IMG/VR virus record: IMGVR_UViG_3300044675_003504
Location: 1 to 25,698 of that record
DNA: 25,698 nt
DNA from: a virus
Direction: 5' to 3' (one strand)
The notes beneath the pieces are model-generated. The model made no database searches, was not told where the DNA came from, and was given only the letters and a program-made list of their open reading frames with translations. The position numbers and the translations under genes were made by a program. Positions 1,907-25,698 of this stretch are shown one piece after another. Position 1 is the first letter of the stretch; each line of letters opens with the position of its first letter.

Positions 1907-2724
<818 letters not shown>

Positions 2725-2731
2725 CTCTCTC

Positions 2732-3630
2732 CTATGCCGTCGCTAACGCAATTTTTCCAGCATTACCAACAGCAACTGCGCTGTTAGCAAGTTTCACAAC
2801 TGCATTAATATTTGTTGTTCCAAAAGAAGAACTTCTTTGGGTCCAACCAGAGCCATTAAAAGATGTGGCAAGTGTTCCAGAGTTACCACAAGCAACATAG
2901 GAATCTGAGTCATATGAAACATCTAAAATATCTGATGTTCCAAATGAAGAAGTCTGTAAAGTCCAATCTGTTCCATTTTCAGAAGTTGTCAGTTTTCCGT
3001 TTTGACCTGTTGCTACATAAACTGAACCACCGCGAACTACAGAGTAGATGTTTGAAGCACCAAAAGACGAGACTCTTTGAGTCCAAGTTAAGCCATCTGT
3101 AGATGTTGCTAGTTTTCCTGAATTACCTACAGCCACATATAAACTGTTTGTAGCAGTAATGTCTTGAATAAAAGATGTACCAAATGAAGAACTTCTCAGT
3201 GTCCAAGTTATTGTGTCAGTAGATGTTGCCAATTTTCCATCTGCTCCTACTGCAACGTATAGTCCAGCACCTGAAGAGTAGGTAAATCCAGCAACTGCAC
3301 TTGTTCCAAAAGGAGATGTTCTTTGAGTCCAAGCAAGTCCATTAGTTGAGAAGGCAATCTTTCCAGAGTTACCTCCAGCCAAGTGGATATTATTTACATA
3401 TGCCACAGACTGGATTCCAGTAATCCCAAAAGAAGAAGTTCTTAGAGTCCAAGAAGTAGCATTTGTTGATGTAGCAAGTTTTCCATCATTGCCAACAGCA
3501 ACAAATAAAGTTCCATTGTGTGTAAGGTCATTGATATTGCTTGACCCAAAAGGTGAGGTCTGTTGAGACCATGAGGATGCGGTAAAAGGGATTTCTACAG
3601 CGTTGTAAATTCCATGTTGAGCAATAAGCA

Positions 3631-3631
<1 letters not shown>
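2732..3631 (-). CDS. Seven-repeat beta-propeller (BNR/Ycf48-like) virion protein
   Basis: The protein consists of seven repeats of ~41 residues, each opening with W(S/T)-x2-x-S-(S/P)-FG and containing (V/C)G-N/A-x-GK-x-(A/T)-x-ST. This matches BNR/Ycf48-like propellers and predicts a seven-bladed disc. Propellers in phage fibres usually form receptor-binding or scaffold knobs. I start it at ATG 3631-3629, which overlaps the preceding stop as TAATG and has GGTGA upstream, the same coupling seen at the terminase and at the 57-aa membrane gene here. A longer form from ATG 3661 adds ten residues ([10 protein letters not shown]) but lacks a clear ribosome site. The strong mutual similarity of the repeats points to recent duplication. 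Confidence 0.82.
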
Positions 3632-11168
<7,537 letters not shown>

Positions 11169-13554: not shown

Positions 13555-13785
13555 GTGGAAATTACTCAACAAAAACGAATGAGCATAAGAGCCACGGCTA
13601 TTAGATATGGGATTCCTCCACGAGTTGTTTCACGGGCAATTTGGTGTGGGGAATTATCGGCAATCAGGACCACCACAGAAACTGGCAGAGAACGCATTTA
13701 TATTTTGAATGACGATGCTGAGAAATGGTTTAACTCCCTTGCTCTTCCTGCTGACACTTCTGTTTCTGTTGGTGGTGCTGAATGA
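13555..13785 (+). CDS. Helix-turn-helix DNA-binding protein (excisionase/MerR-like), 76 aa
   Basis: A 76-aa basic protein. Residues ~9-60 (RATAIRYGIPPRVVSRAIWCGELSA, then TETGRERIYILNDDAEKWF) have the order of the HTH_17/excisionase family: a recognition helix followed by a small wing carrying an Arg. Such proteins act as excisionases, replication regulators or repressors. The start is GTG at 13555 with AAGGGGAAGG upstream; an internal ATG at 13579 would drop eight residues and lacks a ribosome site. Its TGA overlaps the primase ATG as ATGA, so it is translationally coupled to the replication protein. That argues for a role in replication initiation or its control at least as much as in excision. 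Confidence 0.75.
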   Translation: MEITQQKRMSIRATAIRYGIPPRVVSRAIWCGELSAIRTTTETGRERIYILNDDAEKWFNSLALPADTSVSVGGAE

Positions 13786-16427
13786 GTTCACACGACTACG
13801 CAACTGGAAAATTAGGACCATCTGCTCAGTGGTACGCATCTCAAGGATGGAAAATTCTTCCATGCCACGGAATTACTTTAGATGGAAGATGTACTTGTAA
13901 TCAGCCACACGCTGAGCCAAAAGATAAGGGCAAGCACCCAGCCATTAACAAGTGGAATACAGATGCAACCTCTGACCCAAACACACTCACTCGCTACTGG
14001 GAACAAAATCCTGAATACAACATTGGTGTTTCTTGTCGCTCTTCTGGATTTTTAGTAATTGATATCGACCCTCGTGGCGGTGGAACAGAATCTTTTGAAA
14101 AGTTTGAACAACTTGTTGAGGGCGCATTGCCACCAACAGTTGAGGCAATTACTGGTGAATACACAATCGGTGGCGGAAGAATTCTTCGTGGTCGCCATCT
14201 TTACTATAAGTGTGATGAATCAGAAGATTTAGTAGGAAATCTTAGTAAGGCAGGTTTAAGAGGAATTGATATTAAGCACAACGGGTATGTGCTTATTGCT
14301 CCTTCGCGCCACTTTTCTGGTCAGTGCTACGAGTGGGTTTCTGGGCATCGTCCTGATGAAATTCAAATGGCGGAAGCACCAGAAGAACTTCTAAAGTTTT
14401 TACGCAAGCGTGGTAATAGTCGTGGAACAACTTCTGTTGGAACTGGCGACTGGGATTCTATATTTGAAGATTTAGAATTTTCAGGAAAAAAAGTAGACAT
14501 TGATAAAATTCTTGAAGAAGGAATTGAAGAAGGTGGACGTGCAATTGGTCTTTACGAACTTGCTTGCGCTTTAGCAAATAAGTTTCCAGTAAATACTGAG
14601 GCAGGTCGTTTAGCAGTTGAGTCTTTGATGATTCGTTTTAACGCAGAGAAGGTTCGTCCTCCGATGCCGTTAGAAGGAACTAATAGCGTAATGATGCACA
14701 CTAGACGTGCAATTGAGTTTGTTATAAAAAATCCTAAGATTGACAGGATTTGGCCTGGTGCGCAGGAGTGGGCACAGAAGTCTCAAGAAGAATCACGTTC
14801 AGTTACTACTGAAAAAACTACTTCTACAGATTCTGTAGCGCCTATGCTTGGTGTAGTTCAGCCACCTCCAATAGCAATCAACACTAGAAGTACAGCAATT
14901 CTTGAAGCAATATCTGAAGGTAAGACAACTTCTCAAGCGCTCTCTGCTGATAACTTAAATATTCCTGGTGATGTTGACGCCATATCCTCGGAGGATGGTG
15001 GAGTTGAGGCAACAAGAAGTTTTACAGATATTGGTAATGGACGTCGTCTTGTTGATACATACCAAAGTGTAATTCGCTACACAGAGGGTCTTGGGTGGTT
15101 TCATTGGAATAACGGGTACTGGACTCCTGACCCAGAGTCTTTAGAGATTCGTGAATTAGCAAAGCGCATACCAGCGATGATTGCTTCAGAGATTGACCAT
15201 TACAAGGGTGATGACAGCAAGCAAGGAGAAGTAATTAAGTGGGCGCAGCAGTCAAAATCTTTATCACGTATTCGCTCGACAATTGATACTGCAAACTCTG
15301 ACCCACGAATTATTGTTCCCGTTGAACACTGGGACCGAGATGAAAATTTATTAGGAGTTATGAATGGTGTAGTTGATTTGAGAACTGGAGAACTACTCAA
15401 AGATAGACCAGACTTATTTATAACTCGTCGTGCTCCTGTTGGATACATTCGTGGAGAAAAAAATACACGCTGGGAACAATTTCTTGATTATGCAACTGGT
15501 GGAGATAAAGAGTATCAAGACTGGCTTCAACGTGCGGCTGGATATTCAATTACTGGTTCTCGTAAGTTTGACATTATGTTTTTGGTTTATGGTCCTGCTG
15601 GTTCAGGTAAGAACACTTTTGTAGAAGCGATTGTTAAGTGTTTAGGAACTAGACAATACGCATGGCCTCTTGACTCAAGCATTCTTGCTCAGGGTGATGG
15701 AAAAGCAAACAATACTGACTTGTACCACTGGGCAGAAATTCGTGGACGCAGACTTGTGTGGGTGGATGAACTTCCAGATAGCGAGCGTCTAAAAGAAAAC
15801 TCTGTAAAGAAACTTACAGGTTCATCTGAAATCTCTGCTCGCTCTCCTGGAGAAAAACCATTTACATTTGAGTCAAAGGCTAAACTTTGGGTGTCTACTA
15901 ACCACCGTCCTATCATTACAGATGATGCGATGTGGCGTCGTATTCGGCCAATCCCATTTGTTCATGTGCCAGAAAAACCTGACCCTGACTTAAAAGAATA
16001 CATTTTTGATTCTGAAGGCGGTCTTCCTGCGGTTCTGTCGTGGGCTGTTGAAGGTGCTATAAAACTGCTCGGTTCTAGTGCTCGTGACAGTCTTGGATGG
16101 TGTCGTGTAGTTAGCGAAGCAGCAGAAGTTTATAGAAAGAACGAAGACAGAATTGGTTTGTTCTTGTCAGAAGAAACTAATGAAAACGAATCTCACTCTG
16201 TTCCTGTAAAAGAGTTGTACACAACTTACAGAGCGTGGAGTGAAGAACGAGGTGAACGTCCTATGACTCAGGTGGCCTTTGACCGTAAACTTCGTGATAG
16301 AAACTTAAATGTTATTGGTTCTGGTGCTAGAGCATTGGTCAATGGAAGATCAATGATTCCTAGGGCTGTTCCGTCTGGAGAGATTGACTGGCAAGCAGCA
16401 GCACGTTTGTCTAGATACAATAATTAA
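13782..16427 (+). CDS. Bifunctional primase-polymerase / SF3 (D5-type) helicase, 881 aa
   Basis: The N-terminal ~200 residues are an archaeo-eukaryotic-type prim-pol: GKHPAINKW, then the metal pair D94-x-D96 in FLVIDIDPRGG, H139 in GRHLYYKCD and D163 in RGIDIKHNGYVLI. The central ~300 residues are linker and D5-N-like region. The C-terminal part is a superfamily 3 helicase: Walker A GPAGSGKN 604-611, Walker B with D662-E663 in WVDELPD, sensor N707 in WVSTNHRP and arginine-finger candidates R719/R720. The fused enzyme primes and unwinds DNA at phage replication forks. It overlaps the HTH gene by ATGA and is the only large plus-strand gene. Its stop overlaps the convergent terminase stop. Confidence 0.93.
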   Translation: MSSHDYATGKLGPSAQWYASQGWKILPCHGITLDGRCTCNQPHAEPKDKGKHPAINKWNTDATSDPNTLTRYWEQNPEYNIGVSCRSSGFLVIDIDPRGGGTESFEKFEQLVEGALPPTVEAITGEYTIGGGRILRGRHLYYKCDESEDLVGNLSKAGLRGIDIKHNGYVLIAPSRHFSGQCYEWVSGHRPDEIQMAEAPEELLKFLRKRGNSRGTTSVGTGDWDSIFEDLEFSGKKVDIDKILEEGIEEGGRAIGLYELACALANKFPVNTEAGRLAVESLMIRFNAEKVRPPMPLEGTNSVMMHTRRAIEFVIKNPKIDRIWPGAQEWAQKSQEESRSVTTEKTTSTDSVAPMLGVVQPPPIAINTRSTAILEAISEGKTTSQALSADNLNIPGDVDAISSEDGGVEATRSFTDIGNGRRLVDTYQSVIRYTEGLGWFHWNNGYWTPDPESLEIRELAKRIPAMIASEIDHYKGDDSKQGEVIKWAQQSKSLSRIRSTIDTANSDPRIIVPVEHWDRDENLLGVMNGVVDLRTGELLKDRPDLFITRRAPVGYIRGEKNTRWEQFLDYATGGDKEYQDWLQRAAGYSITGSRKFDIMFLVYGPAGSGKNTFVEAIVKCLGTRQYAWPLDSSILAQGDGKANNTDLYHWAEIRGRRLVWVDELPDSERLKENSVKKLTGSSEISARSPGEKPFTFESKAKLWVSTNHRPIITDDAMWRRIRPIPFVHVPEKPDPDLKEYIFDSEGGLPAVLSWAVEGAIKLLGSSARDSLGWCRVVSEAAEVYRKNEDRIGLFLSEETNENESHSVPVKELYTTYRAWSEERGERPMTQVAFDRKLRDRNLNVIGSGARALVNGRSMIPRAVPSGEIDWQAAARLSRYNN

Positions 16428-17839
16428 CGAACACCAAAAATTTTTCCACCACGAGTACCGTAGTTAGAGCCTTTGATTCCTTGAATTTTTCTAGAACCAG
16501 AAGACTTTGCGGTAAGCCTTCCACCAATAAATCCTTGCGGTGGCTTGATTAGCAGTGCTGTCATAGCGTGAACTAACGCATCAACTCTGTCTGGGGATTT
16601 TCCTTCTCCTGGAATCCAAGCAGTCATTTGGTCTTCTAGTTCTGCTAGATATCCAATATGGTGAATTCTTTGTTGTTCATAAGCAAGAACTACTGGCTCG
16701 GCACGAAGTTGTTTGCCGTGCTTTGAATGCACTTCAAATACTTTTACGTTCGGGTCAATGGCATTTATGGCATTTGTAACAAGGGCTCCACCTTGGTTTA
16801 CTTCAGCAACAACTGGAGCGCCCCAACGGCGAGCCATTTCAACAACTTTGTTTGCCCAAACTTCAGGTGAGCCATGAATTGTTGCATCTTCTAATACCCA
16901 AGCGTGGCGCTTATACAAATCTCTATCTGCTGTAGAAGCACAAACAACAATTCCGCAAGCATCTCTTGGGTTTTCAGCAACAGATGGATCAACACCAATA
17001 ACTCTGAGAGGGGCTTGTGGAGGAAGTATTCCTTGTCTTGATTCTGAAATCATTTCTAATGTCCACAATGCTCCTTCAATAGAATCAAGCATCTCTCCAT
17101 AAAGTTCCTGACGAGCAAGACGTGTTCCTTCGTAAACTCCCATAATTGTGTCTAGATAGGCACCACTTAAGTTCCCTGAATTGTCCATAGTTGAGCCGCG
17201 ACTAACAACAACTTTCTTTCCTTTTTTTGCTTCATCTAGCAATGTATAAAGTAGGGGAACACGCTTAGGTGTGGTAGTAATCATAATTTGAGGATTCAAA
17301 CCAAGACGAGTTCCAACACGCAAGTTATCAAATGCAGTCATACCCGCAGCATCTGGAGTCTGACGCCATGCGGCTACTTCATCTCCCCAAGCGTGTGTAA
17401 ATTGCGGACCACGGAGAGAGTCTGGCTCATCTGCTGTAAAGCAGGTTGCGGTATTTCCATTAGGCCAAGTCAATCGGCGCTTTGATGGTTCGTACAGTGG
17501 ACGCTCACTTGGTGGCGTCACATTCATAATTCCTGATTCACCTTCAACAATAACGTCTCGCACATCTGCTGCTGTACGAGCAACTAACGCAAAGCGACGT
17601 TGACCAGTGTTTGTGTATTTAGCAGTTTCTCTAACCCACTCTGCTGCTGCACGAGTCTTACCAGCACCACGACCAGCAAGATAAATCCAAATATTCCAAT
17701 CACCATCTGGTGCTATTTGCTCTGGTCTACCCCAAGATTTCCAGTCCCAGACAAGTGTTTCCATATCAACACCAGCAAGTGCTAATTTCTTTTCTTCATC
17801 TGGGAGAGAGGCAATAATCTCCATAAGACTTTTTGCCAT
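16424..17839 (-). CDS. terL: Terminase large subunit, 471 aa
   Basis: This is the DNA-packaging motor. The ATPase has Walker A GRGAGKT (56-62) in WIYLAGRGAGKTRAAAEW, and Walker B D153-E154 in THAWGDEVAAW. A TTTPKRVPLL segment (188-197) fits the coupling motif. The C-terminal RNase H-fold nuclease shows the acidic residues D284 in VIGVDPS, E346 in VVAEVNQGG and D420 in PDRVDALVHA. Length and motifs are complete. Its ATG overlaps the upstream stop as TAATG, with GGTGAG as ribosome site inside the upstream gene, coupling it to the putative small subunit. Its stop overlaps the convergent primase stop. No portal or capsid gene follows directly; those must lie outside this window. Confidence 0.95.
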   Translation of the reverse strand: MAKSLMEIIASLPDEEKKLALAGVDMETLVWDWKSWGRPEQIAPDGDWNIWIYLAGRGAGKTRAAAEWVRETAKYTNTGQRRFALVARTAADVRDVIVEGESGIMNVTPPSERPLYEPSKRRLTWPNGNTATCFTADEPDSLRGPQFTHAWGDEVAAWRQTPDAAGMTAFDNLRVGTRLGLNPQIMITTTPKRVPLLYTLLDEAKKGKKVVVSRGSTMDNSGNLSGAYLDTIMGVYEGTRLARQELYGEMLDSIEGALWTLEMISESRQGILPPQAPLRVIGVDPSVAENPRDACGIVVCASTADRDLYKRHAWVLEDATIHGSPEVWANKVVEMARRWGAPVVAEVNQGGALVTNAINAIDPNVKVFEVHSKHGKQLRAEPVVLAYEQQRIHHIGYLAELEDQMTAWIPGEGKSPDRVDALVHAMTALLIKPPQGFIGGRLTAKSSGSRKIQGIKGSNYGTRGGKIFGVR

Positions 17840-18364: not shown

Positions 18365-18538
18365 TTAGTCTTCTTCTCGGTCACGTCTGATTGGGTATGT
18401 AGACCACCAAACAACCATAGAAAATATGATTGCGTAGCCTACGATTGTCTTAGCAGACCCGTCAAGAACAAGCCAAGCAATAAACATACCTAGCAGTGTC
18501 CAGACTTGGTCCAAGACGTCTCTTAGGAAGTCTCTCAT
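18365..18538 (-). CDS. 57-aa two-helix membrane protein, holin candidate
   Basis: Direct translation from ATG 18538 to TAA 18365-18367 gives 57 residues: an N-terminal MRDFLRDVLDQVW, helix one about 13-26 (WTLLGMFIAWLVL), a short DGSAK turn, helix two about 31-47 (TIVGYAIIFSMVVWW), and a charged tail RRDREED. Two helices joined by a tight turn with a charged C-terminus is the classic class II holin layout. The ATG overlaps the surface-protein stop as TAATG. It is the next gene upstream of the terminase pair. A holin role is inferred from topology and position; a generic virion or host-membrane protein is the alternative. Confidence 0.72.
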   Translation of the reverse strand: MRDFLRDVLDQVWTLLGMFIAWLVLDGSAKTIVGYAIIFSMVVWWSTYPIRRDREED

Positions 18539-21500
18539 TATTTCACTCTCCTTGTTCTAGCATTTGTTTTTACTTTTTTAGTTGTTTTTACTTTGCGACG
18601 AGTTCCGCTTTCACGACCTACAGGTCCTCCAGCATCTCCTCCACCTCTAGGAGAAGAAGGACTACTTCCTCCACCAGCAGGTGCTCCACCGCCTGTGGGC
18701 GGTGCTGCTACCGCTAAAGCAGCAGCAACTGCTTGACCAACAACAACAGTTGCCAAAACCATTTTCTCTGCTTCTTCACGTTCTTCTTCAGACATATCTG
18801 CACCAAGACTTGCTAAAGCAAGCAAAGCCTGTGCAGGGTCAGTAAATATTGCATCTACCAATGCGCCTGGGTCAGCAATCAATTCTAGCGCCGCTGCTAC
18901 CTCAGCGACTATGACAATCTCATTGCCATTCTCATCTTGACGCACTTCAACAGGGGTCTCTGGAGGAAGGTCTTTATACTCAATTCCAGCATCTTGAATT
19001 TGTTCTTTAGTCAGATTTTCACCTGGCGCAACTGATTCAAGAAGAGCATCTGCAACTAGGTTTTTTTCAGCCTCTGTCAATTTTCCGTCAGCAGCAAGTG
19101 CATCTGAAAGATTATTTACTTCATCTTTAGTAACTTCACCATCTGCACCTAAAGCATCAAGAATATCTTCAGCATCTGAGGCACTTAATTTTCCATCAGC
19201 AAGAGCATCATCTACCGCAGCAACAATTTCTTCTTCTGTAACTTCAGCAGGTGGCTCTTCTGCTGGAGGTTCTTCTGCTGGAGGTTCTTCAGCAGGTGGC
19301 TCTTCTGCTGGAGGCTCTTCTGCTGGAGGTTCTTCAGCAGGTGGCTCTTCTGCTGGAGGTTCTTCTGCTGGAGGTTCTTCAGCAGGTGGCTCTTCTGCTG
19401 GAGGTTCTTCTGCTGGAGGTTCTTCAGCAGGTGGCTCTTCTGCTGGAGGTTCTTCTGCTGGAGGTTCTTCAGCAGGTGGCTCTTCTGCTGGAGGCTCTTC
19501 TGCTGGAGGTTCTTCAGCAGGTGGCTCTTCTGCTGGAGGTTCTTCAGCAGGTGGCTCTTCTGCTGGAGGTTCTTCTGCTGGAGGTTCTGGCTCTACAGGA
19601 GGTTCAACAGGAGGCTCTTCAGGTTCTGGTTCTGGCTCTACTGGAGGAGGTGGAGGTGGAGGTGGAGTTAAATCATCAACAAAAACTTGAGTAGCAACTA
19701 TGTCTGAATATTTAGCAAGTGAGTCATTATCTGAGCGAACACTAATTTGATAAGTAGTATCTAATCCACCAGTTGACTCAAAAAGGGATGCTGGAAGAAC
19801 AATGCTTGTATTGAGAGCATTTGCGTCTCCTGCATTTCCAGTTGCTACACCCCATCCGCTACTTCCAGTTGACCAAGAGATTGCGTAACGCTCTGGAGAA
19901 ATTACGCCAGGTGGTGGAGGGTCCCAAGAAACTTGAACATCACCATTACTTAATTGAGTAACAACAATATTTGTAGGTGGAGCAATAGGGCTTTGAAGAA
20001 TGACTTCTTGTGCCACAACGGTCTGAGCAGTTTGTACAGCCTGGATTGCTTCAACAGTTTCTGTAATTGCTGTTTGAGCAAGAGTTACTGCTGTGTCCAT
20101 TGCCTCTACAGCGTCTTCAGCATCTTGTAAATCTGCTTGAGCATCGGCTAAATTATCAGCAGCAGCGTCTTCTTCTGCTTCTAAGAATTCAAGTTCATCT
20201 TGCTCTGTCTCAACATTTGCTTCAGCAGTAGCCAATGTTTGAAGTTGCTGAGTAGTCGCTGATGACTGAGTAAACTCTGAGCCAGGAATAACTTCCCATG
20301 TACCATTATCTGTGTAACGCATAAGCGCTACCCAAGCGCCTCCGCCATTTTCGTAGTACCACAATTCAAGTGCTTTTCCAGTTCCAGCAGTAGTTGTGAC
20401 ATCGGCAGTTGAGCCTCCGCCACCCTTGTCATACCAGTCATTAATGACAAGTTCGCCATCAAGATAGAGTTTTACTCCATCATCTCCTGGAGCGTGTAAG
20501 TATTGAGTTCCAGTAGTTTGAGGAGTCCAAATTCCAGAGTACTTAACAACTACATCCTCTGTTCTATTACTTCCAGCAACTACACCTCCACCCCATTGTT
20601 CATCGATTCCATTTGTGTCAGTAGTTGTAAGAATTGGAGTTGCTCCTGCTGGAACTACAGGTGCAGCATTTTGCCCTTGAGTGTTGTAAACCTCTACCTT
20701 TAGTCCTGGAGTTGTGGCAGCATCTACTACTGCTTGAGCAGTGGCCTCGATAGTAACGGCTTGCGTTACTACTACCTCTTGAGCATCTACTGCTGCTTGT
20801 GCTCCCTGTAAAATTTCTGTCTTATCAGCAACCACTGCTGTCGCTGCTTCTACTGTAGGGGCAGTCTGAGCAAGAGTTACTGCTGTATCCATAGCAGTCT
20901 GCGCTGCTTCTACTGCTTCTTGCGCCTCAACAACAGCGTCAACAGCGTTATCAACTGCTGTAGAAACTTCAGGCTTTGTTAGTGGAAGGTTGTCTGCTGA
21001 AGTAACAATTGTTTCTAGTGTGCTGGAGACAACTTCTACAGCAGCAGCAGCAACAACAATTTGAGTTTGAGCAACAACTACAACTGCCTCTTCTACAGCA
21101 GAAGTTGCTTGCTCTGTTGAAGAAACAGCAGTGACTGTCGCTGTCTCAGCGGTGTTTTGCGCAGTGGCTGCTGTGTTTTGCGCAGTGGCTTGAGTTGTCT
21201 GTAGAGTCGCAAGAGTGCTTTGGGCCGTAGACAGTGTTGTAGTAGCAGTTGTTTCTGCTGTTTGTAAGGTAGTAAGAGTATTTTGTGCTGTAGATAATGT
21301 ATTTGCAGCAGCCTGGGCAGTTGCTACTAGAGCAGGGTCTGAAGTTGTCTTAGTAATTGTTATATTATCTACAACATAGTAATCAGCATCTTTTACAATA
21401 GTTACAGTATCTATATTTGTGCCAGTTACAGTCTCGGTGGATGTATATGAAACTGACTGTTGCTGAGGAGAGACGTTGTTATCCATAACCGTTGTGGTTG

Positions 21501-22425
21501 TGGTTCCATCTGCGTTTGTTGTAATAATTGGTGTATCACCGTTTTTAGCATAAACACCCATAACAACTTGAGTAACAGTTCCAGTATTTGATGGGTTTAC
21601 ATCAATAACAACATTGTCCGCTGGGTTAATAATTACAAGACCTGGTCCAGAGGTTTGAGGGGTGCCCCAGTTCCCACCAATAGAAACGCCAGTTGAGGAT
21701 GTAGAAGAGGTTACTGTTGTAGTCCCTGTTGTTATTGCTACAACGGTTGTTGTGTTATTTGTAAATGTTTCAACCGAGGTTGTAGTTGTGTTGGCAGAAT
21801 CTGCTGCTGCTTGTGCTGATGTTGCTGCTGTCTGAGCGGAGGCAACTACTGCCTCTTGAGAATCTACTGCTGTTGCTGCTTGAGTAAGAGTATTTTGTGC
21901 TGTTGCTACTACCGTTGTTTGGGCTGTAACTGAGGTGGTTGCTTGGGCCAAAGTTTGATTGGCAGTTTCCGATGTTGCAACTGCTGTTTGGGCTGTCGCA
22001 ACTGAAGTTGTTGCTTCTTGAGTAGCACTACTTGCTTCTTGTACTTGTGTAGTTGCGTCTGCTACTGCTTGTGTTGTTGTTTGAGATGGTTGTGGTATTG
22101 ATGCTACTACCTCCGCTATCTGTACGACTTTTTCTTCAAGTGTTGTTACAGTAGATGCTGCCGTTGCTACAGCAGTTGACGCTTCAGTTAGTGGGTCTTG
22201 CGTGGACTCCACTGAAGAGCCTGTTGGGATCACCTCCGACGACGCATTGGAATTTGCGTTGTTATTGGTTCCAGCATCACCCCCACTCGAAGATTGGGCT
22301 TCTTCAGCCACAGCGGTTGTTGAACTAAGTATCCCATAAATAAAAGAAAGTATTGGGACAGACAGAATATAAAGAAGAGTCCGCTTTTGGACCTTCTTTG
22401 TAATAACACGAGCGCGACAAAGCAC
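18538..22425 (-). CDS. Large secreted/anchored surface protein with PA14 and fibronectin III domains, 1295 aa
   Basis: A basic N-terminus plus hydrophobic stretch (TLLYILSVPILSFIYGIL) ending STTAVA|EE looks like a signal peptide cut after about A40. Then come ~530 residues of Ala/Thr/Val/Gln-rich helical repeats (TAQTAVATSE types). A PA14 carbohydrate-binding domain spans ~574-719 (APGDDGVKLYLDGELVINDW), a Glu/Ala coiled coil follows, then fibronectin III at ~814-916, a Pro/Glu stalk of about 22 EEPPA units (~942-1060), EF-hand-like ADGKLT repeats (~1061-1140), a hydrophobic segment (~1219-1242) and a Lys/Arg tail. The start is GTG 22425 with GGGAG ten bases upstream. There is no LPxTG. It resembles bacterial adhesins more than virion proteins; the function is unknown. 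Confidence 0.8.
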   Translation of the reverse strand: MLCRARVITKKVQKRTLLYILSVPILSFIYGILSSTTAVAEEAQSSSGGDAGTNNNANSNASSEVIPTGSSVESTQDPLTEASTAVATAASTVTTLEEKVVQIAEVVASIPQPSQTTTQAVADATTQVQEASSATQEATTSVATAQTAVATSETANQTLAQATTSVTAQTTVVATAQNTLTQAATAVDSQEAVVASAQTAATSAQAAADSANTTTTSVETFTNNTTTVVAITTGTTTVTSSTSSTGVSIGGNWGTPQTSGPGLVIINPADNVVIDVNPSNTGTVTQVVMGVYAKNGDTPIITTNADGTTTTTVMDNNVSPQQQSVSYTSTETVTGTNIDTVTIVKDADYYVVDNITITKTTSDPALVATAQAAANTLSTAQNTLTTLQTAETTATTTLSTAQSTLATLQTTQATAQNTAATAQNTAETATVTAVSSTEQATSAVEEAVVVVAQTQIVVAAAAVEVVSSTLETIVTSADNLPLTKPEVSTAVDNAVDAVVEAQEAVEAAQTAMDTAVTLAQTAPTVEAATAVVADKTEILQGAQAAVDAQEVVVTQAVTIEATAQAVVDAATTPGLKVEVYNTQGQNAAPVVPAGATPILTTTDTNGIDEQWGGGVVAGSNRTEDVVVKYSGIWTPQTTGTQYLHAPGDDGVKLYLDGELVINDWYDKGGGGSTADVTTTAGTGKALELWYYENGGGAWVALMRYTDNGTWEVIPGSEFTQSSATTQQLQTLATAEANVETEQDELEFLEAEEDAAADNLADAQADLQDAEDAVEAMDTAVTLAQTAITETVEAIQAVQTAQTVVAQEVILQSPIAPPTNIVVTQLSNGDVQVSWDPPPPGVISPERYAISWSTGSSGWGVATGNAGDANALNTSIVLPASLFESTGGLDTTYQISVRSDNDSLAKYSDIVATQVFVDDLTPPPPPPPPVEPEPEPEEPPVEPPVEPEPPAEEPPAEEPPAEEPPAEEPPAEEPPAEEPPAEEPPAEEPPAEEPPAEEPPAEEPPAEEPPAEEPPAEEPPAEEPPAEEPPAEEPPAEEPPAEEPPAEEPPAEEPPAEEPPAEVTEEEIVAAVDDALADGKLSASDAEDILDALGADGEVTKDEVNNLSDALAADGKLTEAEKNLVADALLESVAPGENLTKEQIQDAGIEYKDLPPETPVEVRQDENGNEIVIVAEVAAALELIADPGALVDAIFTDPAQALLALASLGADMSEEEREEAEKMVLATVVVGQAVAAALAVAAPPTGGGAPAGGGSSPSSPRGGGDAGGPVGRESGTRRKVKTTKKVKTNARTRRVK
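19248..19590 (-). repeat. 15-bp tandem repeat coding the EEPPA stalk, with 45-bp higher-order period
   Basis: About 22 units of 15 bp, each coding Glu-Glu-Pro-Pro-Ala, are arrayed without interruption. Synonymous variants (ggctcttctgctgga, ggttcttctgctgga, ggttcttcagcaggt) alternate to give a 45-bp super-unit, broken by a two-unit step near the end of the array. The pattern fits growth by slippage or unequal recombination; every change of one unit stays in frame. Confidence 0.9.
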
Positions 22426-22454
22426 GACGAGATACTCCCACCATAGGTAATCTC

Positions 22455-22501
22455 ATACAGAAATATCTGTATCTTCCAGTGCTTATTTTACAGTATGTAA
22501 A
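22455..22501. promoter_or_regulatory. Two palindromes between the recombinase and surface-protein genes
   Basis: ATACAGA-AATA-TCTGTAT (22455-22472) and TTTACA-GTA-TGTAAA (22487-22501) are perfect inverted repeats 14 bases apart, in an 84-base AT-rich spacer. They share an ACA/TGT core. They could be binding or crossover sites of the adjacent serine recombinase, or operators of the surface-protein gene, whose GTG lies 30 bases downstream on the minus strand. Confidence 0.45.
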
Positions 22502-22509
22502 TAAATAAA

Positions 22510-23172
22510 TTACTTTTTGTTGCGTAAATGTGCGTGACGAACCGTGGATGCGTGCCACTTTTTTCCACCAAGAGCAGTTGGTATAGCGTCTCTATTGAGA
22601 CCATTTGCTATCAAGTTATATGAAAGACCTAGACTTCTTTCTCTCTCAATTCTATCTTTAATTGATTCGTTTATTAGTGGTAGTGGGCCTAAGTCAATAC
22701 CCCAAACTTTTCCGTTAGTACGTCTATCTTGGTGAACATCTTTCTGACGAAGTGAAATCATTCCACGTTCCATCTCTGCCATCGCAGACATAATTGTTAC
22801 AACAAAGCGACCTTGATAAGTTGCAGTATCTAAACCTAAATCAAGAAGTGCTAGACGCCAGTTGTATTTATGTGAACGGTCAACAATGCTAAGAAAGTCT
22901 CTAGTAGAGCGAGCAAGTCTGTCTAGCCGTGTAACGAAGAGGGCTTCTGCTTCTCCTTTATCTAAACTGTTTAGTGCAGCAGTTAAGACTGGTCGCCCCG
23001 TAATGTTTTTTCCAGAGCGACCTTCTTCACGAAGCATTTCTACTTCATACCCTTGAGACTCCGCTGCATAGCGAAGTTGCTTCTCTTGGGCATCAAGGCT
23101 TACGCCATCGTCCACTTGCATCTGGGTAGATACACGGGCATAGCAGTAAGCAATCTTTTTCTTTTCAGTCAA
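22510..23172 (-). CDS. Small serine recombinase (resolvase/invertase family), 220 aa
   Basis: The catalytic domain is complete: S15 with R13 in CYARVSTQMQ, then LDAQEKQL, EEGRSGKNITGRP, the active-site RLDRLARS (82-89) and MAEMERG (131-137). The C-terminal ~60 residues (SLGLSYNLIANGLNRDAIPT, then WHASTVRHA) form the HTH-like DNA-binding part seen in resolvases and at the start of the Recombinase domain. At 220 aa it is far shorter than large serine integrases, so resolution, inversion or a mini-integrase role is possible. The start is TTG at 23172, sharing TTGA with the ThyX stop; the next Met would remove the catalytic serine. No duplicated att-like site is visible, apart from two palindromes beyond its 3' end. 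Confidence 0.88.
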   Translation of the reverse strand: MTEKKKIAYCYARVSTQMQVDDGVSLDAQEKQLRYAAESQGYEVEMLREEGRSGKNITGRPVLTAALNSLDKGEAEALFVTRLDRLARSTRDFLSIVDRSHKYNWRLALLDLGLDTATYQGRFVVTIMSAMAEMERGMISLRQKDVHQDRRTNGKVWGIDLGPLPLINESIKDRIERERSLGLSYNLIANGLNRDAIPTALGGKKWHASTVRHAHLRNKK

Positions 23173-23885
23173 GGAGCGACTCTTCCATTCTTTATAAAAG
23201 CATCGTGAGTTATAGGCATCAACTCTTTGAATATCTCCTCGTACTTCTCTGCAACCATTTCAATCTCCCTCTGGGGGTAGGAAGGAAAACGTTGACCCTC
23301 GACATTGCGACGAAGGGATAAGAAGTTCATCAGCGCACGAGCGTTCATAGTTACGTATGCAGATGAGTAAATTGTTAGTGGAAGGACTCCTCGTGCTACT
23401 TCACGAGCAACACCGCTTCGAAGCATATCCTCGTAATTTTGGTATGCCTCTTTACAAGTCCTTCTATAAGAAGTCAGAGTTATTGCCATCTGTTCTGCAT
23501 CTCCTGGCTCAAAGGTATACGCCCCTGGCTTTCCAATTTGAAGAAGTTTTCTATCTTGTCCAGGAATATAGAACTCTGGCTGTAAAACCCGATAACGCCC
23601 AGACTCTTCGTTGTAGGAAGCCATGCGATGGCGCATATGTTCACGCCAAACAAAGATGGGAGCCTTCACATAGAAGGTAAAGACAGAGTGCTCAAAAGGT
23701 GAGCCGTGTCTGTCTTTCATCAAGTAGCCAATAAGACCAGTAAGTTTCTTGTTATCGTCGTTGTCTTGATAGCCAACTGTGCGCTCGCCAATAGTGCTGA
23801 CTCTTGCTGCAAAAGCAATGTCTTGGTCTGAAGCGCTGTGTTTGACTAACTGAACATCAACATCGGATTTGAAGTTGATGTCCAA
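23169..23885 (-). CDS. thyX: Flavin-dependent thymidylate synthase ThyX, 238 aa
   Basis: ThyX converts dUMP to dTMP using FAD, NADPH and methylene-tetrahydrofolate. The signature RHRxxSxNExSxRY is intact as RHRMASYNEESGRY (85-98), preceded by HGSPFEHSVFTF (60-71), and followed by SLRRNVEGQRFPSYPQREI in the C-terminal substrate region. Length is normal for the family. It starts at TTG 23885, three bases after the previous stop, with a purine-rich GAAGAAGAG upstream; no in-frame ATG exists before the conserved core. It overlaps the recombinase start as TTGA. Phage ThyX raises dTMP supply for replication. Confidence 0.95.
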   Translation of the reverse strand: MDINFKSDVDVQLVKHSASDQDIAFAARVSTIGERTVGYQDNDDNKKLTGLIGYLMKDRHGSPFEHSVFTFYVKAPIFVWREHMRHRMASYNEESGRYRVLQPEFYIPGQDRKLLQIGKPGAYTFEPGDAEQMAITLTSYRRTCKEAYQNYEDMLRSGVAREVARGVLPLTIYSSAYVTMNARALMNFLSLRRNVEGQRFPSYPQREIEMVAEKYEEIFKELMPITHDAFIKNGRVAP

Positions 23886-23888
23886 GGG

Positions 23889-24149
23889 CTACTCTTCTTC
23901 TTTGTCTTTTACAATTCTAAAACTCTTGCCTTTGGCAAAATTGTTGATGGCTTTATCGTAAGTTCTATCAATAGGGCTCTTACTTCCCTTTTTAGAAGAC
24001 TTCTTAGTAAATACCTGAACTACTGCCTTTGCGACAGCGTAAGCCAGAACAACACCGAAGGCTCCAACAATAAACACCAAACCCCATCCAACAATGGATA
24101 AAGCCAATTCAAACGCTAACTTAAATGGATCTTGCCAGTTTAGGTTCAT
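23889..24149 (-). CDS. Small one-helix membrane protein, 86 aa
   Basis: Residues ~16-46 (LALSIVGWGLVFIVGAFGVV, then LAYAVAKAVVQVF) make one long or two short transmembrane segments. A strongly basic stretch (TKKSSKKGSKS) and a charged tail ending KDKEEE follow. By the positive-inside rule the C-terminal half should be cytoplasmic. ATG 24149 has AGGAA upstream. It is followed by thyX after three bases. The function is unknown: a holin-like or accessory membrane protein is possible. An imperfect palindrome at 24189-24210 and a -10-like TATAAG (24179-24184) precede it, so it may open its own transcript. Confidence 0.7.
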   Translation of the reverse strand: MNLNWQDPFKLAFELALSIVGWGLVFIVGAFGVVLAYAVAKAVVQVFTKKSSKKGSKSPIDRTYDKAINNFAKGKSFRIVKDKEEE

Positions 24150-24178
24150 ATTTCCTCGTTTTCTAGGGAGTATCCCTG

Positions 24179-24210
24179 CTTATAGTATACAGACTTAGAC
24201 CTAAGACTGT
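24179..24210 (-). promoter_or_regulatory. Candidate promoter with overlapping operator upstream of the 86-aa/thyX unit
   Basis: On the minus strand TATAAG (24179-24184) is a fair -10 box. Just upstream lies ACAGACTTAG-AC-CTAAGACTGT (24189-24210), an inverted repeat with nine of ten arm positions matching, where a repressor would block polymerase. No convincing -35 is seen. The rest of 24150-24277 holds only a short AGGGA/TCCCT palindrome (24165-24177). Confidence 0.4.
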
Positions 24211-24277
24211 ACAGATAATCTAACAATATCACACTCTTTCTAAGTGTCACATTGGACGATTTTTGCCTAAAAGACGT

Positions 24278-24400
24278 TTACTTTTTCTTTTCTAACTCTA
24301 ATAACCTCTTTTTTATATCCCTAAGCATAAACTTTACTAACACCCAGTCCAATGCCAAACCAAGTCCTAGCCCAAATAAAAACCAAAAATATTGATTCAC
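24278..24400 (-). CDS. 40-aa single-helix membrane peptide
   Basis: Direct translation from GTG 24400 to TAA 24278-24280 gives 40 residues: MNQYFWFLFGLGLGLALDWV, then LVKFMLRDIKK and a Glu/Lys-rich end. Residues ~4-26 form a transmembrane helix; the rest is a basic amphipathic tail. AAGGAG lies about nine bases before the GTG, inside the zinc-finger gene, and the GTG overlaps that gene's stop as GTGA. The good ribosome site and coupling make this a real gene despite its size. The function is unknown; tiny phage membrane peptides include antiholins, superinfection-exclusion and lysis modulators. Confidence 0.65.
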   Translation of the reverse strand: MNQYFWFLFGLGLGLALDWVLVKFMLRDIKKRLLELEKKK

Positions 24401-24507
24401 TTCTTATGCTCCTTCATATGTCGTGCAAGGGTATGGTGAGCAAAGCCCGAACGGACTTCAACTTCTTTATTACATACTGGACAGATAACTACTCGGTTTG
24501 CTGACAT
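24397..24507 (-). CDS. 36-aa zinc-finger-like peptide
   Basis: I start this at ATG 24507: MSANRVVICPVCNKEVEVRS, then GFAHHTLARHMKEHKK. C9-x2-C12 followed by H25-x4-H30 and H34 is a C2H2-type zinc-knuckle pattern, and the end is basic. The same frame is open further upstream to ATG 24663 (88 aa). That extension is Ser/Thr/Ala low-complexity and lies antiphase over the Cys-rich 55-aa gene, so I treat it as a shadow. The start lies four bases after that gene's stop. A nucleic-acid-binding or adaptor role is likely for a finger this short. Confidence 0.6.
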   Translation of the reverse strand: MSANRVVICPVCNKEVEVRSGFAHHTLARHMKEHKK

Positions 24508-24511
24508 TACT

Positions 24512-24679
24512 TTACTCACTACAGTCACACTTTGAATAAGGGTCAAAAGAGCAGAACTGGCATTCCATGCGCTCTTGGTGGGCTTTGCAGTAGTAGCGGA
24601 ACTGATGCTCGTCGCAGCAAACAAAGAGTTCGTCAATGATGTTGTAGAACTGGGTTGAGTCAATGGTTTTTGTAGTCAT
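24512..24679 (-). CDS. 55-aa Cys/His-rich protein
   Basis: Direct translation from ATG 24679 to TAA 24512-24514 gives a protein starting MTTKTIDSTQFYNIIDELF. It then has VCCDEHQFRYYCKAHQERM, ECQFCSFDPYSKCDC and SE. Seven cysteines (21, 22, 31, 40, 43, 51, 53) plus H25 and H34 are clustered as in small zinc-binding proteins; C40-x2-C43 is a typical knuckle. The frame spans the same DNA as the low-complexity N-terminal part of an 88-aa frame, and its metal-ligand spacing makes it the better candidate. It starts just downstream of promoter-like element A (24694-24735). The function is unknown. Confidence 0.68.
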   Translation of the reverse strand: MTTKTIDSTQFYNIIDELFVCCDEHQFRYYCKAHQERMECQFCSFDPYSKCDCSE

Positions 24680-24693
24680 AGCCTTAAGGTATA

Positions 24694-24735
24694 CCTATAG
24701 AATAGAAAAGTCAAATCTTTGCGCTCTAGGTCCGT
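24694..24735 (-). promoter_or_regulatory. Promoter-like repeat, copy A
   Basis: On the minus strand the block ACGGACCTAGAGCG (24722-24735) is followed after exactly 22 bases by TATAGG (24694-24699), then after 14 bases by the 55-aa gene's ATG, with AAGG in the short leader. Copy B at 25263-25304 has the same two blocks and spacing. The upstream block also touches the stop codon of the nuclease-like gene. Confidence 0.55.
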
Positions 24736-25256
24736 TAATCAATGAGGGAGACTTCAAGCCAAGAAGGGGGGGTTATGGGGGTAAGTAGGTTGGTTGGGTA
24801 GCGCCACCCGTCAATGGCTGGGTCCACGAATTCAGGGAGCATGGCATCTTCTGCGACTACATAGCCAAAGATTTCAACTTTTGTAAAATACTCTGGGTCA
24901 AGTAATTCGCATCCAACAATTGTCTTGCCTTTGTCTTTTTCCCAGATAGCAACAGCGTCACTTGTACGAATTGTTCGTACTTCAATCTTTTGGCCAACAT
25001 CTGCAAGATGTTTTCTGTATTCGTGAAACCTATTGCTGTATGTGTAGGAACCGCCCCATACTTGCTCGGTAACAAGAGCAACAGCGCATTCGGCAACAGC
25101 AGCACGAATAGAAGCATTGAGTTCGTGTTCCAGGCTTCCGTTCTGTTTGCCTTTGGCGTAGTTGGGCCTATCTACACTACCAAACTTGCGACGATAGCGT
25201 GTAGTTCCTACTCGTATACACTCGTCGATTTCGTCTTGAAGCATATTGAGAATCAT
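24735..25256 (-). CDS. PD-(D/E)XK nuclease-like phage protein, ~173 aa
   Basis: Counted from the TTG at 25283, the core runs ASIRAAVAECAVALVTEQVW, then HLADVGQKIEVRTIRTSD and AVAIWEKDKGKTIVG, then KVEIFGYVVAEDA and a YPTNLLTPI end. This order (an E in the first helix, D-x-G, an E-V-R strand, a (V/I)-x-G strand, GY/GW) matches a widespread phage family with restriction-endonuclease-like layout, in which EVR stands for the usual ExK. Activity is unproven. I use ATG 25256, because the TATAGT of copy B lies 6 bases upstream and would start transcription at about this A, giving a leaderless mRNA. The alternative TTG 25283 adds nine residues inside the promoter-like element. The function could be DNA processing or nuclease-derived regulation. 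Confidence 0.68.
   Translation of the reverse strand: MILNMLQDEIDECIRVGTTRYRRKFGSVDRPNYAKGKQNGSLEHELNASIRAAVAECAVALVTEQVWGGSYTYSNRFHEYRKHLADVGQKIEVRTIRTSDAVAIWEKDKGKTIVGCELLDPEYFTKVEIFGYVVAEDAMLPEFVDPAIDGWRYPTNLLTPITPPSWLEVSLID
24766..24798 (+). other. G-run cluster within the 3' end of the nuclease-like gene
   Basis: On the plus strand there is a run of seven G, then five G, GG, GG and GGG within 33 bases (coding Pro-rich TPPSW on the other strand). It could form a two- or three-tier quadruplex. It lies on the same side of promoter-like copy A as the larger tract at 25327 lies to copy B. Confidence 0.45.
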
Positions 25257-25262
25257 TTGACA

Positions 25263-25304
25263 ACTATACAATGAAAAGTTCAATTTTTCCCGCTCTAGGT
25301 CCGT
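25263..25304 (-). promoter_or_regulatory. Promoter-like repeat, copy B
   Basis: ACGGACCTAGAGCG (25291-25304), 22 bases, then TATAGT (25263-25268) on the minus strand, identical in layout to copy A. ATG 25256 begins six bases past the hexamer, so transcription would start at or next to the start codon. A TTGA[A]CTTTTC stretch is also shared inside the spacer. Confidence 0.6.
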
Positions 25305-25326
25305 AAACCGAAGAAGCCGAAAGGAT

Positions 25327-25380
25327 GGGGTTTAGGAGGGTTAGGGAAGGGGTAGGGGGTGTTTTAGGGTAAGGTTGGGG
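25327..25380 (+). other. G-quadruplex-type tract in the leader of the Ntn hydrolase gene
   Basis: Within 54 bases the plus strand carries runs of 4, 3, 3, 4, 5, 3 and 4 G separated by short A/T-rich loops, including one TTAGGG. Four or more G3+ runs with loops of up to seven bases meet the usual G4 criterion. The tract ends three bases before the ATG at 25384, so it would lie in the mRNA leader as well as in DNA. Confidence 0.7.
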
Positions 25381-25383
25381 CTT

Positions 25384-25698
25384 ATGACGACGGTAATTGG
25401 GATTCAGGGGGCTGGCTACTGCGTGCTGGCTTGCGACTCGCAAACAACAGGGGAAACTGGTCGTCCGTATGTGCATGACAAAGTAAAGAAGATTGTTGAG
25501 CGTGGTGAGTATCTAATTGCTGGCTCAGGGGATGCTGACGCTTGCGACATCATCCAGCACCTATGGGAGCCTCCAAAGCCTCCTCGCAAGAAAGATATGT
25601 ACAACTTTGTAGTTTCAAAGGTTGCCCCAAGCATCAAGGCTTGTCTCAAAGAAAAAGGCTATGAGCCAGATAAAAATGATAAAGAGGCTGGCTTTTTG
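25384..25698 (+). CDS. HslV/proteasome-beta-like Ntn hydrolase (3' end outside window)
   Basis: The visible 105 residues begin MTTVIGIQGAGYCVLACDSQ. Counting the Thr after Met as residue 1, D17 falls in CVLACDS as in proteasome beta/HslV subunits. A VKK motif (K35, two residues later than the usual catalytic K33) precedes IVERGEYLIAGSGDADACD, which matches the G-x3-D region of the family. Like HslV, no propeptide is needed: removal of Met alone exposes the catalytic Thr. The frame is open to the right edge; the family is ~170-200 aa, so roughly half is missing. It could be a phage protease for virion maturation or host protein turnover, or an Ntn-fold enzyme with another amide substrate. It is the only plus-strand gene at this end and divergent from the nuclease-like gene. 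Confidence 0.82.
   Translation, partial: MTTVIGIQGAGYCVLACDSQTTGETGRPYVHDKVKKIVERGEYLIAGSGDADACDIIQHLWEPPKPPRKKDMYNFVVSKVAPSIKACLKEKGYEPDKNDKEAGFL

Follow-up and report, generated by a model that had tools for sequence, protein, structure and literature searches.

A predicted proteasome-like threonine peptidase encoded by a relative of freshwater actinophage DSL-LC01

The window, as we call the whole stretch of DNA analyzed here (25,698 bases), is the entire virus record G000, and it ends inside a gene: an ATG at position 25384 opens a reading frame that stays open up to the end of the contig at 25698. The features of the locus are as follows.

16424-17839, minus strand: terminase large subunit, 76% identical to that of Actinomycetia phage DSL-LC01
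23169-23885, minus strand: ThyX thymidylate synthase
24735-25283, minus strand: neighboring ORF, divergent from the peptidase gene, with no Pfam match and in a PHROG of unknown function (phrog_18407)
25292-25307, minus strand: copy of a repeated intergenic element, upstream of the minus-strand ORF 24735-25283
25327-25352, plus strand: G-rich leader with a G-quadruplex-type run, GGGGTTTAGGAGGGTTAGGGAAGGGG, just upstream of the peptidase ATG; the window has no other motif of this kind
25384-25698, plus strand: 5' 105 codons of the gene for a predicted 174-aa threonine peptidase of group I, BPH/HslV type ("type A")
25387-25389, plus strand: codon of Thr1, the predicted catalytic nucleophile after removal of Met; invariant in 70 of 70 distinct relatives
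25435-25437, plus strand: codon of Asp17, which aligns with Asp17 of BPH and HslV; invariant in 70 of 70
25489-25491, plus strand: codon of Lys35, by alignment the equivalent of proteasome Lys33 and Td-BPH Lys37 (PMC5777263); invariant in 70 of 70
25528-25530, plus strand: codon of Gly48, by alignment the oxyanion-hole Gly (Td-BPH Gly50); invariant in 70 of 70

Because the record stops within the gene, the 3' part is missing from the window. The earlier note on this DNA sought the complete gene, and we found it in L005 (5999-6523; 174 aa plus stop). This contig (L005/L045; 17,695 bases) matches window positions 20000 to 25698 end to end, at a reported identity of 100%, and extends 11 kb past the window's right end; its peptidase gene differs from that of the window by one amino acid. 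Full-length peptidases are present in five contigs (proteins 97-100% identical) and include the second half of the Ntn sandwich, which rules out a fragment lacking that half of the fold. In relatives the gene begins at the same codon as in the window (ATG, GTG, or TTG), with no shared sequence ahead of it; we therefore place the start at ATG 25384 rather than at an in-frame TTG three codons upstream. PHROG_1040, "peptidase HslV family," was matched at E=6e-12 by the window fragment and at E=7e-28 by the full protein, which also scored 28.4 bits against Pfam PF00227 (Proteasome, peptidase family T1; cut-off, 22.4 bits). As sequence matches, these are far above chance.

The residues on which the earlier note built its case all read as it gave them: the MTTV start, D17, the lysine of VKK, and the GSGDAD loop (M-TTVIGIQ...ACD(17)S...VKK(35)I...AGSGDAD). 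Counting from the Met, T2, D18, K36, G49, G134, and G136 were invariant across 70 distinct sequences, in which S/T135, D161 (67 of 70), and T/S164 were also kept. The Ser of the GSG loop can thus be either Ser or Thr, and the relatives carry a C-terminal D-x-x-[TS] motif that is presumably akin to the Asp166/Ser169 pair found in beta subunits of the proteasome. Median pairwise dN/dS among the relatives was 0.12 (the pairs are non-independent), and at the sequence level the gene is under purifying selection. The earlier note had further described the lysine as lying two residues out of the usual register. Position 35 is correct, and yet it is not an oddity: the catalytic Lys stands exactly at 33 in family members L010 and L023 and is Lys37 in the solved Thiobacillus BPH (PMC5777263), so Lys35 is ordinary and a displaced lysine can be set aside as an unusual feature. 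T2, D18, K36, G49, and S/T135 map one-to-one on T1, D17, K37, G50, and S139 of Td-BPH, and from homology with L010, L023, and the Thiobacillus enzyme we infer that T1, D17, and K35 would converge.

An AlphaFold model (21 relatives; mean pLDDT, 90; pTM, 0.86) contains both halves of the Ntn sandwich and all of helices H1 to H4, and it is least confident in the loop of residues 21-40, just before the catalytic Lys. Foldseek searches of the PDB placed BPH, the betaproteobacterial proteasome homolog, first (5ovs/5ovt; TM up to 0.77), with HslV also among the top matches; the matches span the whole chain, and hence the predicted four-layer alpha-beta-beta-alpha fold is complete. In a viral library, phage "HslV" proteins came out on top. 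The family profile gave a similar picture against PDB sequences, hitting HslV and BPH at E=4e-11 to 1e-9, the BPH match covering nearly the entire length. Structure prediction and profile search against HslV and other Ntn hydrolases, both of which the earlier note had proposed, thus agree on BPH and HslV as the best matches to a full fold. We regard identity as a proteasome-like threonine peptidase as very nearly certain. With a complete fold, a complete active site, and purifying selection, the earlier reading of a phage-encoded proteasome/HslV-type Ntn hydrolase with Thr right after Met is upheld, and by sequence and model the protein is a catalytically competent, group I proteasome-like Ntn hydrolase.

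The protein is neither HslV proper nor a 20S beta subunit, as the curated models for each were missed by more than 100 bits: the NCBIfam HslV models at 23.0 and 23.2 bits (cut-offs, 157.75 and 137), the archaeal 20S-beta model at 27.7 bits (cut-off, 224), and the bacterial one at 14 bits (cut-off, 191.9). Its compact shape, without a C-terminal H5, instead fits the "group I" proteasome-like proteins (BPH/AAH/CPH/PPH) defined by Fuchs et al. in 2021 (PMC8665760). HslV has a short H2-S7 pore linker with a basic cluster, Arg86/Arg89/Lys90 (PMC5777263); alignment with E. coli HslV, by loop lengths and charges, revealed no such linker in the window protein, whose H2-S7 loop is longer and acid-rich relative to E. 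coli HslV, although only mildly net negative (4 acidic and 3 basic residues), and shorter than that of BPH. According to the models and the alignment, H3-H4 is also about 10 residues shorter than in HslV or BPH. Proteasome beta rings stack through this hairpin (PMC8665760), so that its shortening makes a double ring, such as the six-fold one of HslV or the seven-fold one of BPH, uncertain for the window type. When HslV and BPH references were included in a tree, they fell on very long branches, with BPH inside the phage group, and the deep placement is therefore not to be trusted.

By terminase sequence, the window phage is a relative of the freshwater actinophage DSL-LC01, and the next-closest terminases belong to Microbacterium and Gordonia phages. 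This kinship suggests that the host is probably an actinobacterium. Lake metagenome data were the source of the DSL-LC01 genome itself, and the phage was assigned to Actinomycetia by prediction (PMC10611076).

Several other elements occupy the window. The element GCTCTAGGTCCG is present in three same-orientation copies (window 24723-24738 and 25292-25307; L005 7988), each just upstream of a minus-strand gene, and for two of these the minus-strand reading continues into TTGAC/TTGAA and TATAG-like boxes; judging from this arrangement, it is probably a leftward phage promoter and not part of the peptidase gene. L048 and L053 likewise have G-rich peptidase leaders, whereas L007 lacks one. On the minus strand, positions 1907-11168 hold three long collagen-like (GPTGxTG) genes of up to 1719 aa, one of which (791 aa; 3631-6006, minus strand) matches phage tail-fiber families, and positions 18538-22425, upstream of the terminase gene, hold a GTG-initiated 1295-aa ORF whose product contains long (EPPAEEPPA)n repeats and matches no PHROG. 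An 881-aa Prim-Pol/D5-type primase-helicase is encoded on the plus strand (13782-16427), opposite to its neighbors, and a resolvase-type serine recombinase gene adjoins thyX (22510-23172, minus strand).

The adjoining gene that the earlier note took to be nuclease-like is the divergent ORF 24735-25283, and its lack of a Pfam match and its PHROG of unknown function give that description no support. The true HNH gene is the next one downstream, beyond the window (L005 6501-7049). Within the window's own clade the peptidase gene stands alone, with the HNH gene convergent downstream, and in Microbacterium phage Pumpernickel the HslV-like gene sits immediately beside thyX. The peptidase start codon overlaps the stop of the preceding gene in 75 of the 109 loci with an upstream gene. 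That preceding gene encodes a CHC2 DNA-primase zinc finger in 66 loci, a TOPRIM primase gene usually follows the peptidase gene directly or after one small ORF, and genes for a DnaB-like helicase, WhiB, and a sigma-like protein are no more than six genes away in these primase-module loci, most of which come from one clade of approximately 41-kb phages and are hence non-independent. Smaller clades (L020-L025, L036, and L085) also have the peptidase gene in this module, but the gene order differs. By gene order and overlap, the peptidase gene of the approximately 41-kb lake phages is translationally coupled inside a primase/helicase/sigma operon.

We lean toward an unfoldase-independent threonine peptidase that serves as an accessory enzyme during infection. 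Methionine aminopeptidase normally accepts Met-Thr and would remove the Met, exposing Thr1 as the nucleophile; Lys35 and Asp17 would then assist deprotonation of Thr1, Gly48 would sit in the oxyanion hole, and peptide bonds would be cleaved. Less certainly, a dedicated AAA+ unfoldase may be dispensable, with loosely folded or peptide substrates passing the acid-rich pore loop, as has been proposed for BPH. The most tentative step is the last, that early in infection this accessory enzyme may trim or clear particular proteins of the host or the phage rather than act on proheads. The early timing is suggested by cotranslation with primase, helicase, and sigma genes in sister phages, and the argument rests on those sister clades since the gene of the window's clade lies outside the replication operon. 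A role in host takeover, which the earlier note had put forward, may likewise be inferred.

The same fold could also perform a narrow, nondegradative task, such as a specific cleavage, an amidase step, or a connectase-like ligation, possibly as a single ring or a monomer. Connectase proves the fold capable of this (PMC8665760), the shortened ring-stacking hairpin of the window-type protein is consistent with it, and several distinct phage clades hold a single small gene of this kind without an evident partner. However, no connectase-type insertion covers the active site, helices H1 to H4 are all present in the model, and the active-site set is that of peptidases; we therefore consider such a task unlikely, if credible.

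Rather more doubtful is an HslV-like ring that uses a host or phage AAA+ unfoldase, as the earlier note proposed when it envisaged a proteolytic ring of the phage's own gated by a borrowed host ATPase. The fold and catalytic residues are the same as in HslV, and some large relatives do have general AAA-domain genes (for example DSL-LC01 27507-27929 and Pumpernickel 94429-94746), so that an ATPase partner is conceivable; in DSL-LC01, one AAA-domain gene adjoins an annotated "cobalamin biosynthesis" gene. Against this stand the 23-bit scores already given for HslV models with cut-offs of 137 and 157.75, and the missing short basic pore region. The AAA+ partner that the earlier note would have sought in neighboring DNA did not appear either: no AAA_2 (HslU/ClpX-type) gene exceeded the cut-off in 16 related phage records, a search in which 14 control genomes were positive, no HslU was found in 4 phage records, and no general AAA domain exceeded the cut-off in the approximately 41-kb phages. 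A published search for AAA+ partners of phage proteasome homologs came up equally empty (PMC8665760), and Table 1 of that paper has no HslV entry for Actinobacteria, which makes HslU unlikely in the inferred host. The idea of a borrowed ATPase is thus left without support.

A second proteasome-like homolog, which we call type B, is encoded in the 134-kb relative G006.

L185 10001-10570 (G006 about 78498-79067, minus strand): type B peptidase gene, active site intact

Scanning with this homolog yielded 44 loci (L183-L226). The type B protein has about 189 aa and a full-length H3-H4 hairpin, about 10 residues longer than in the window type, and its model resembles a BPH subunit (pLDDT, 91). Types A and B are about 32-34% identical, fall in separate clades (support, 100/97 on the A side and 82/82 on the B side), and each retain every catalytic residue. 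At least six records (G006, G022, G023, G025, G030, and G032) contain both, on the same strand and 33-38 kb apart; in G024, which has type B, no type A was found, and the window record has type A only. The window shares its layout of terminase and type A genes with 105-135-kb relatives, and in G006, G022, and G023 the orientation is also the same, so we predict that the window phage also carries type B, on the same strand, about 35 kb past the right edge of the window. Our literature search turned up no report of a phage with two such genes. It is conceivable that the 105-135-kb phages and the window phage make a two-component A/B proteasome, a co-assembling mixed ring unlike homomeric HslV and BPH. 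The presence of both genes is observed in the six or more records and co-assembly is speculation, and we give this idea slighter odds still.

Maturation proteases for capsids or virions are commonly encoded by phages, and the window does hold terminase and tail genes, but a role of that kind is very improbable, because no locus examined has a portal, scaffold, or capsid neighbor or places the gene in a capsid module, in keeping with the earlier note's view of a gene set apart from capsid genes and prohead context, and because the gene instead lies among primase genes in the approximately 41-kb phages and after thyX in Pumpernickel.

We return to the unfoldase-independent accessory peptidase and its occurrence. 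One pattern alone recovered at least 583 confirmed loci from freshwater phage contigs, in which this peptidase group is very common. Scans of genome contigs returned one relative, in a Gammaproteobacteria MAG, and a plasmid scan returned only distant homologs (22-28%) from rhizobia, Streptomyces, and Paraburkholderia, which rules out recent capture of a bacterial gene. One distant proteasome-like homolog, annotated as hypothetical and starting MTCIVG, lies on the Sinorhizobium fredii symbiotic plasmid pSfreGR64b (L128 5001-5546), between nifQ and iron-sulfur cluster assembly/nifS genes; genes related to it occur in 21 virus contigs.

A phage-carried proteasome-like enzyme is not new, being both published (PMC8665760) and annotated in databases. 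Since their description in 2021, however, phage proteasome homologs have been listed without function, partner, or genomic clue. Our results add one lineage locked into a replication operon and, in the window's lineage, a second active-looking homolog. The isolated Microbacterium and Arthrobacter phages, together with the A/B pair, offer concrete testable systems.

Among known systems, HslV (ClpQ) has the Ntn fold, T1/D17/K33, and the GSG loop in common with the window protein and differs in its short basic pore region. PPH and AAH resemble the window gene in belonging to group I, in occurring in tailed phages, and in that no AAA+ partner has been found (PMC8665760). PPH, at about 140 aa, lacks H2 (PMC8665760), whereas the window protein has 174 aa and a helix at 72-90 in the AlphaFold model, and membership in PPH is thereby ruled out. 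No actinophage AAH was found in the 2021 survey (PMC8665760), a statement on which the window gene may bear, should it prove to be an AAH. By profile (E=7e-28), PHROG_1040 and the annotated phage "protease" genes of Actinomycetia phage DSL-LC01, Microbacterium phages Pumpernickel and WaterT, Arthrobacter phage Pitbull, and BFVD entry A0A6J7XBU4 are of the same family, and we found no described function for such "protease" or HslV genes in the literature. These relatives have the same N-terminus and active site as the window protein, yet they are only 26-41% identical, and the BFVD match has the same predicted fold (TM, 0.86). The closest structural match is BPH (5ovs, 5ovt, and 5ovu), with equivalents of T1, D17, the catalytic Lys, the oxyanion-hole Gly, and the GSG loop. 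BPH departs from HslV in the same direction, with a longer, acid-rich H2-S7 loop; its catalytic Lys is likewise shifted in sequence, it covalently binds epoxomicin, and it is without a known partner unfoldase (PMC5777263). It differs from the window type in having a longer H3-H4 stretch and a longer pore loop, in being only about 24% identical by structural alignment, and in being a cellular rather than a phage protein.
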